From positions 1 through 49,634 of the forward strand of contig VEMX01000033.1 of assembly GCA_009711805.1 (NCBI GenBank): a DNA stretch of 49,634 bases, in the 5' to 3' direction. Numbering within the stretch: the stretch's first letter is position 1; every line of letters begins with the position of its first letter. The translations under genes and the position numbers were made by a program. Under the pieces are notes generated by a model. That model saw only the letters and a program-made list of their open reading frames with translations, had not been told where the DNA came from and searched no databases. Below, one piece after another: positions 16,711 through 17,573 of the stretch. This DNA comes from Balneolaceae bacterium. Lineage in GTDB: Bacteria > Bacteroidota > Rhodothermia > Balneolales > Balneolaceae.

Positions 16711-16961
16711 ATTACCCTCTTAATCTAAATTACTGAAACCTATACAATATCATTATCAACAAATATCGAAAAAACATTAGTAATTGCAAATATTATTAGC
16801 TGTTCTCTAATCATCCTTAGAGCATTCTAACAGATCTTCTACTTTCGACAGCTTAACTCTAATACACACTAAAGGTAGTCCTTGTCTTCATATAAAACGG
16901 GTATTTGTCTAGAATACAACAAATCCAATCTGTTGTTGGCTGAATTGGTTTTGGTAAGAAA
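16711..16961. other. Spacer between kinase gene and ssrA-derived repeats
   Basis: No gene or RNA is visible here. The stretch should contain the promoter of the minus-strand OB-fold sensor kinase, but no clear promoter elements could be assigned. Confidence 0.35.
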
Positions 16962-17083
16962 TAGTGGAGGTGCGGGGAGTCTTCCGAAGGAATCCCCACG
17001 GGAGAACCCCGGGTTCGCTCCCCGCAAACTGGGATAATAAAAAAGCCAGCTTAGTGGGTATGCCGGCTTGGGGTTTTTAAAGG
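16962..17083 (-). repeat. 122-bp tandem unit, distal copy of ssrA 3' end plus terminator
   Basis: This unit is identical over 122 bp to 17084-17205. It begins with TAGTGGAGGTGCGGGGAGTC, the same 20 bases that form the 3' end of tmRNA and its flank. Next comes a GC-rich block that can fold through an 8-bp stem (GCGGGGAG / CTCCCCGC on the minus strand) enclosing smaller palindromes. A terminator hairpin ends the unit. It is not a complete tRNA or tmRNA. Confidence 0.85.
17039..17078 (-). terminator. Distal duplicated terminator
   Basis: This is the exact copy of the terminator at 17161-17200 (stem AAGCCGGC / GCTGGCTT on the minus strand followed by a T-run). It lies within the distal 122-bp unit and would act as a back-up stop for ssrA transcription. 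Confidence 0.7.
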
Positions 17084-17205
17084 TAGTGGAGGTGCGGGGA
17101 GTCTTCCGAAGGAATCCCCACGGGAGAACCCCGGGTTCGCTCCCCGCAAACTGGGATAATAAAAAAGCCAGCTTAGTGGGTATGCCGGCTTGGGGTTTTT
17201 AAAGG
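17084..17205 (-). repeat. 122-bp tandem unit, proximal copy abutting ssrA
   Basis: This is an exact copy of the neighbouring 122-bp unit. Its right end joins the tmRNA 3' flank, where the 20-base TAGTGGAGGTGCGGGGAGTC sequence occurs a third time (17206-17225). The three occurrences are spaced exactly 122 bp apart. The duplication therefore includes the T-arm 3' strand, acceptor strand and terminator, but not the tmRNA body. Confidence 0.85.
17161..17200 (-). terminator. ssrA terminator
   Basis: Reading the minus strand, AAGCCGGC pairs with GCTGGCTT (one G-U pair) around an 11-base loop, followed by TTTTTTATT. It starts nine bases after the mature tmRNA 3' end and is the first terminator for ssrA. 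Confidence 0.8.
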
Positions 17206-17208
17206 TAG

Positions 17209-17573
17209 TGGAGGTGCGGGGAGTCGAACCCCGGTCCGAGAAGGTAAACCTGCAAGCATCTACATGTTTAGTTACTGATTAAGAGTTCGCCTAAAAGCCG
17301 AGCCCAGTAACCAAGCGACTTCAGACTATTCTGTTTAAGTTCACCTAAAAGCGACAGAAAGCACTTTTAAGTTATCCTATCTTGTATGACGTCCAGGCTG
17401 GCAATGACAGGCACTTAACCAGCGGGACGGCTTAGTCAGTTTATGCTGCTAAGCTGTAAGAGTAATTATTGTCAATTACTTTTGTTCCGTAATGAATTTT
17501 ATACGAGATCCATTGGACAAGCTCGACATGCAACCTACGGCGCTACTCAACCCGTCGAATCCAGAACACCCCC
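17209..17573 (-). ncRNA. ssrA: Transfer-messenger RNA (tmRNA)
   Basis: On the minus strand the RNA starts GGGGGTGTTCTGGATTCGAC, a classic tmRNA 5' end, and finishes with GGTTCGACTCCCCGCACCTCCA. The GGGGGTG and CACCTCC ends pair as the acceptor stem. CCA is not encoded (the next bases are CTA). The tag frame ends AAT AAT TAC TCT TAC AGC TTA GCA GCA TAA, so the tag ends NNYSYSLAA. If GTA is the resume codon, the tag is VIDNNYSYSLAA; the exact resume codon is uncertain. It rescues ribosomes stalled on broken mRNAs and marks their products for proteolysis. Length is about 365 nt, normal for one-piece tmRNA. Confidence 0.96.

Follow-up and report, generated by a model that had tools for sequence, protein, structure and literature searches.

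Why does the 3′ end of ssrA occur three times in a row in a genome whose tmRNA gene is intact? The window analysed here, the whole stretch of 49,634 nucleotides from a Balneolaceae bacterium, poses this question just downstream of ssrA, where two 122-bp units (16962–17083 and 17084–17205) are 100% identical. The 20-mer TAGTGGAGGTGCGGGGAGTC, whose start lies inside the tmRNA T-loop, begins at 16962, at 17084 and again, within the gene, at 17206. An initial annotation had reported this pair of units and the 122-bp steps of the 20-mer, and our repeat comparison found both to be exact.

The array behind ssrA

The gene lies on the minus strand (17573–17206), encodes the tag DNNYSYSLAA according to ARAGORN, and is uninterrupted; tmRNA was the sole Rfam match in the window. 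Following the direction of ssrA, each unit leads from the 3′ end of the gene (GACTCCCCGCACCTCCACTA) through a terminator hairpin with a T-run and a linker to GAACCCGGGGTTC, a copy of the tmRNA T-arm 5′ strand, and then to a 22-bp palindrome and the next 20-mer. In the window this palindrome reads TCCCGTGGGGA TTCCTTCGGAA and splits the duplicated T-loop between TTC and GA. We refer to such 22-bp double palindromes (TNCCnnnGGNA twice) as DHEs. The pattern TNCCnnnGGNATNCCnnnGGNA matched the window twice, at the two DHEs listed in Table 1, against a chance expectation of 0. A small palindromic element had been suspected beforehand in an 8-bp stem (GCGGGGAG/CTCCCCGC). A palindrome is indeed part of the unit, but the one conserved across relatives is the DHE-type 22-mer; the 8-bp stem is present in the window and peculiar to the source genome.

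Table 1. Features of the ssrA locus and of the array downstream of it (positions in the window)
Feature	Position	Strand	Evidence
ssrA (tmRNA), intact	17206..17573	-	Rfam RF00023, 168.9 bits; ARAGORN 17208-17573
Element copy A (122 bp) with the rebuilt end of tmRNA (17206-17225), a terminator, the T-arm 5′ copy and a DHE	17104..17225	-	Exact repeat; boundaries inferred from the tRNA-Ser empty/filled pair
Element copy B, 122 bp, same sequence as copy A	16982..17103	-	Exact repeat
Third 20-mer, displaced original ssrA 3′ end	16962..16981	-	Exact repeat; polarity by analogy, G043 versus G040/G017
DHE of copy A, in T-loop between TTC and GA	17104..17125	-	Covariance-model and pattern match
DHE of copy B	16982..17003	-	Covariance-model and pattern match
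GAACCCGGGGTTC, T-arm 5′ strand copy adjoining the DHE, copy A	17126..17138	-	Model R1 match 17084-17138
GAACCCGGGGTTC, T-arm 5′ strand copy, copy B	17004..17016	-	Model R1 match 16962-17016
Terminator-like hairpin and T-run, now behind ssrA	17160..17191	-	Sequence; hairpin in predicted fold
Terminator-like hairpin, copy B	17038..17069	-	Sequence
CCAAT..ATTGG, possibly the decayed original terminator of ssrA, beyond its displaced 3′ end	16925..16948	-	Inferred from sequence and sister genomes; weak

Neither a recombinase gene nor an endonuclease ORF is present within the 122-bp units. No further copies of the unit were found in the source genome (99 contigs) beyond the ssrA pair, and we rejected the idea of a dispersed repeat, the sequence being confined to that pair. 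The tie to the ssrA 3′ end expected at the outset holds. The structure is not ssrA-specific, however, as it recurs behind many tRNA genes. The perfect identity of the two units suggests that the second copy is recent.

Empty and filled sites, and their distribution

Occupied and unoccupied alleles of the same site exist among close relatives. At the tRNA-Ser(UGA) gene beside atpG, seven of eight congeners have an empty site, in which GGTTC GAATCCCTCACTCTCCGC is followed by the native terminator. The eighth, G042, has a GIY-YIG ORF directly at the end of the same tRNA, then GGGGTTC-TGCCAAAGGCATCCCTTCGGGA-GAATCCCTCACTCTCCGC and the native terminator. This insert is precise and about 312 bp long, it holds one GIY-YIG ORF and a DHE copy, and it leaves the tRNA intact; across the tRNA-Ser stretch, G042 and G044 are 94% identical. 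At ssrA, the corresponding contrast is between G043 and its sisters. In G043 an unrelated new terminator adjoins the gene, and the terminator that sister species have directly at ssrA lies past the DHE copy. At the level of sequence, these sister-genome comparisons demonstrate precise insertion, and together the tRNA-Ser pair and the G043 ssrA locus indicate that the T-loop is the point of entry and that the element brings in a new 3′ end, displacing the old one. They also bear out the initial proposal that the repeats belong to the ssrA 3′ end and that an insertion restored that end.

An arrangement like that of the window, with diverged sequence, stands at ssrA in the same-family genomes G010, G065, G011, G007, G043, G084 and G089. 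In a strict count of ssrA loci that had 300 bp or more of sequence downstream, 8 of 58 distinct loci carried the 3′ end again (a match of at least 15/19), versus 0 of 290 shuffled controls. Such arrays are frequent in one related genus, and many relatives have one plain terminator at ssrA and no unit. In some related genomes, several of them in one genus, ssrA arrays have another palindrome, GCGAAGCAGTGCTTCGC, beside the T-stem (L224, L225, L230, L231 and L232).

The same alleles speak to the explanation that needs no mobile element, namely a simple tandem duplication of the ssrA 3′ end with its terminator, the palindrome being a by-product of break repair. Identical units, as in the window, would fit such an event, and so would the two ssrA terminators of G010, G065 and G011, which are similar. 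However, the new terminator of G043 is unlike the old one, a displaced terminator that the sister species also have; the tRNA-Ser insert is exogenous coding DNA; and the palindrome is conserved and covaries across phyla. We consider this explanation unlikely. The two identical units of the window could still be the product of plain tandem duplication after a single insertion.

A covariance model built on the motif (R1) was run over the genomes of the relatives, and most of its matches lay in partial tRNA copies, at the T-loop, downstream of an intact gene for tRNA-Ser, -Ala, -Asn or -Thr. The palindrome-in-T-arm pattern was found in 68 stretches when the genomes of 85,000 species were searched and in 13 of 394 sampled genomes of the phylum (reversed control pattern, 0), both counts being lower bounds because the pattern fixes part of the stem. 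All 68 stretches are from the FCB group; by their record titles they come from Bacteroidota, Ignavibacteria and relatives, Calditrichota, LCP-89 and Balneolota. The partial 3′ copies are those of tRNAs for Ser, Thr, Arg, Asn, Val and other amino acids, and of tmRNA. Intact cognate tRNAs lie 10–541 bp upstream of the DHE copy, with 80–100% identity over the 20-nt 3′ end. Where at least 700 bp of upstream sequence was available, an intact cognate tRNA stood no more than 600 bp upstream of the DHE copy at 40 of 66 sites in the sense orientation, compared with 1 of 61 in the opposite orientation and 7 of 6,500 random positions in the same loci. For roughly one third of the DHE copies no cognate tRNA was detected nearby, which counts against the model proposed below.

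Tandem arrays are common. The isolate genome of Marinoscillum furvescens has four units at tRNA-Thr (period about 121 bp), a Bacteroidetes MAG has four at tRNA-Arg (146-bp period), and the single-contig genome G360 has at least ten at tRNA-Thr (period about 112 bp).

Some further arrangements were seen. Seven T-arm/palindrome copies lie about 300–775 bp apart in M. furvescens (L139), with no cognate tRNA identified in the stretch examined, and at L069, L072 and L073 the double palindrome is found in intergenic sequence that is hairpin-like, with no tRNA. A palindrome interrupts the anticodon arm of the copies at L209 (tRNA-Asn), L307 (tRNA-Gln) and L308 (tRNA-Gly); at L209 there are two of them, in one arm each. 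Upstream of an intact tRNA-Ser, a copy of the 5′ half of that tRNA carries a DHE in its D-loop (L077, about 1432–1459; G000 C40:7631–7658), possibly a mirror-image insertion. A search of a viral collection gave a single match. One viral contig (L317:2260–2370, IMGVR_UViG_3300005254_000016) carries an apparently whole tRNA-Met(CAT) with the DHE in its T-loop.

Nuclease-bearing members and constraint on the palindrome

At several loci a standalone GIY-YIG ORF of about 80 amino acids (PF01541) separates the tRNA from the palindrome-split copy; E values in full-length relatives, which include one on ssrA, ran from 1e-15 to 3e-18. The full-length ssrA element of G338 (L297) comprises the tmRNA (1124–1490), an 80-aa GIY-YIG ORF that begins 10 bp after it (1501–1743), and a tmRNA 3′ copy with the double palindrome TGCACAGCATCCCTTTGGGA in its T-loop; by this comparison, the window array looks like such an element minus the ORF. 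A nuclease ORF was present in 5 of 40 DHE units with a cognate tRNA. Since most DHE units, including those of the window, have none, it is shared anatomy that links the nuclease to the mini-units, a point against the model proposed below.

In about 20 of 30 loci holding the best GIY-YIG homologues of the phylum, the ORF begins 1–184 bp past a tRNA or tmRNA gene, and a copy of that gene's 3′ end comes after it; the T-loop of this copy, or the anticodon arm for tRNA-Gln and -Gly, usually contains a palindrome. The source genome has GIY-YIG genes behind tRNA-Leu, -Asn, -Gly, -Met and -Ser, and others amid different dispersed palindromes. Standalone genes of this type that accompany other dispersed palindromes and no tRNA copies occur in G000 on C3 (about 126.4–127.2 kb, L206) and C2 (about 24 kb, L208), tandemly repeated with, or embedded in, the repeats GTCACGCAGAGG..GCGTCTTC and GTCATCGCGGG..GATCTCC. 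A similar nuclease may drive other repeat families too.

The nuclease is under purifying selection (dN/dS about 0.07 and 0.11 in the two testable pairs), with Tyr, Gly, Arg, His, Asn and Glu as invariant columns. Among solved proteins, profile comparison places it nearest to UPF0213 members and to SLX1, a structure-specific endonuclease. In a weakly supported tree of 23 nucleases, a set drawn with a tRNA-Ser query, the tRNA-Ser elements grouped by target (3 changes versus 7.4 shuffled) and host families were mixed; we do not rely on this clustering.

That the array might consist of integrase attachment sites was the initial reading, and in its fuller form it would make the units stacked remnants of integrase-bearing ssrA islands with their interiors deleted. 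The islands of Dehalococcoides insert centrally in the T-loop of tmRNA, restore its 3′ end and stack in tandem with a direct repeat of about 20 bp (McMurdie 2011, PMC3146451). The geometry of the window repeats is identical, including the ssrA 3′ end directly repeated at the far end. However, those islands are large and carry serine-recombinase integration modules (PMC3146451), whereas the elements described here measure 110–320 bp, no recombinase was seen in them, full members have a GIY-YIG nuclease instead, and a palindrome splits the displaced copy. The window contig had no match to the phage-integrase domain PF00589, the recombinase domain that was searched, and the clean filled site holds only about 312 bp with its one GIY-YIG ORF. 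Moreover, units of 80–320 bp with the same palindrome occur on many tRNAs in many genera, and repeated deletion down to one short form is implausible. We regard the attachment-site reading as quite unlikely.

Comparison of 69 distinct DHE 22-mers indicated constraint on the palindrome itself. The stem pairs left free by the pattern were Watson–Crick in 98.6% and 100% of cases (expected, 40% and 43%), with GC, CG and TA all in use. The two stems were alike in 4 of the 69 DHEs, compared with 18.5 upon shuffling, and none of 20,000 shuffles gave a value as low; this avoidance of matching stems disfavours one long hairpin. The loop classes mirror each other, purine-N-A in hairpin 1 (52) and T-N-pyrimidine in hairpin 2 (51), never reversed, so that both DNA strands are alike. 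We infer that the DHE acts at the DNA level. In predicted folds of single-stranded DNA, two separate hairpins were not always favoured, which counts against the model proposed below and keeps this DNA-level role tentative.

This symmetry is relevant to a possible role of the units as an RNA element useful to the host, providing extra terminators or a small structured RNA for termination or 3′-end processing. A strong terminator is kept in every unit, the unit fold is modestly more stable than shuffles (z –2.3), and the abundance of ssrA arrays in one related genus would suit such a role. Yet the dyad symmetry of the DHE points to DNA, many relatives manage with the plain terminator, and the units follow tRNA identity rather than transcript function and may have nuclease genes inside, all of which makes a host RNA function very unlikely. 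Finally, an assembly artefact in copy number, the true number being one unit, was a concern raised early on. The draft state of the genome and the identical copies would fit it, but it is highly improbable here and unlikely as a general explanation, since arrays of diverged units recur in other assemblies, including single-contig G360 and the M. furvescens isolate.

A candidate element class and its relatives

The window array is probably a two-copy, non-autonomous member of a set of minimal mobile elements of FCB bacteria that insert at the T-loop of tRNA and tmRNA genes (TTC^GA). It has the features by which we recognise the T-loop DHE family, namely a DHE between TTC and GA and a displaced 3′ copy downstream of an intact ssrA. 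A complete element would consist of a copied 3′ end that rebuilds the gene, a terminator or a small SLX1-like GIY-YIG ORF or both, a T-arm 5′ copy, and a DHE abutting the displaced old 3′ end.

As to the mechanism, we infer that the nuclease makes the cut and that repair copies the element in. The nuclease would cut the T-loop of an unoccupied tRNA or tmRNA gene, and repair from an occupied copy would write the element in, in a homing-like manner, with the duplicated 3′ end keeping the gene functional. The palindrome presumably acts by leaving a split copy that is no longer a normal T-loop and that marks the right end of the element. The rebuilt gene would be a target again, allowing units to stack as tandem arrays. 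Members with no ORF, those of the window included, might be moved by a nuclease acting in trans or amplified locally by recombination. Under such a homing model the rebuilt gene should stay cleavable by its own nuclease, a point against the model, which does not account for self-immunity.

Whether these elements form a distinct class is a more tentative matter. It is conceivable, though we would not put it above an even chance, that a structure-specific, SLX1-like GIY-YIG nuclease of about 80 amino acids and a branched double-palindrome DNA end bring DNA into tRNA/tmRNA T-loops in place of an integrase, transposase or intron, with the palindrome as the recognised end, the gene rebuilt, and the ORF-less 110–120-bp units, including those of the window, as MITEs.

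GIY-YIG homing endonuclease elements, free-standing or intron-borne, are similar to the longer members in their tiny size, GIY-YIG ORF, conserved site, and occupied and unoccupied alleles in close relatives. They differ in that here there is no intron, the host gene is kept working by a duplicated 3′ end and not by splicing, a palindrome-split copy is present, and the nuclease profile is nearest to UPF0213/SLX1. Double-hairpin elements of organelle genomes are short inserts with two adjacent hairpins, in or near RNA genes; the present elements differ from them in residing in bacterial chromosomes, at a fixed position in the T-loop, and in their association with a duplicated 3′ end of a tRNA and with GIY-YIG genes. 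With REP/MITE-type repeats they share small, palindromic, ORF-less forms alongside ORF-bearing ones, but they are site-specific in tRNA/tmRNA T-loops and no terminal inverted repeats were seen. Group I introns occupy the same loop of the same gene, sometimes with homing endonucleases, and interrupt tmRNA genes and self-splice (PMC11915505), whereas the tmRNA gene here is continuous and no intron RNA is present. A group I intron or other RNA family was rejected for the window, as Rfam gives tmRNA only. We found no published description of such bacterial elements; our coverage of the literature was incomplete (subscription journals), and novelty is provisional.

Copies of this kind should not be labelled by annotators as tRNA pseudogenes or integrase attachment sites. 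If our reading is true, it would account for the build-up of small GIY-YIG genes, together with broken 3′ ends of tRNAs, downstream of tRNA and tmRNA genes in a large group of bacteria, and it would add a mobile element of about 110–320 bp that needs neither integrase nor transposase. It would also make testable the idea that SLX1-like nucleases can act in homing or transposition, with hairpin-forming tRNA-gene DNA as their substrate.
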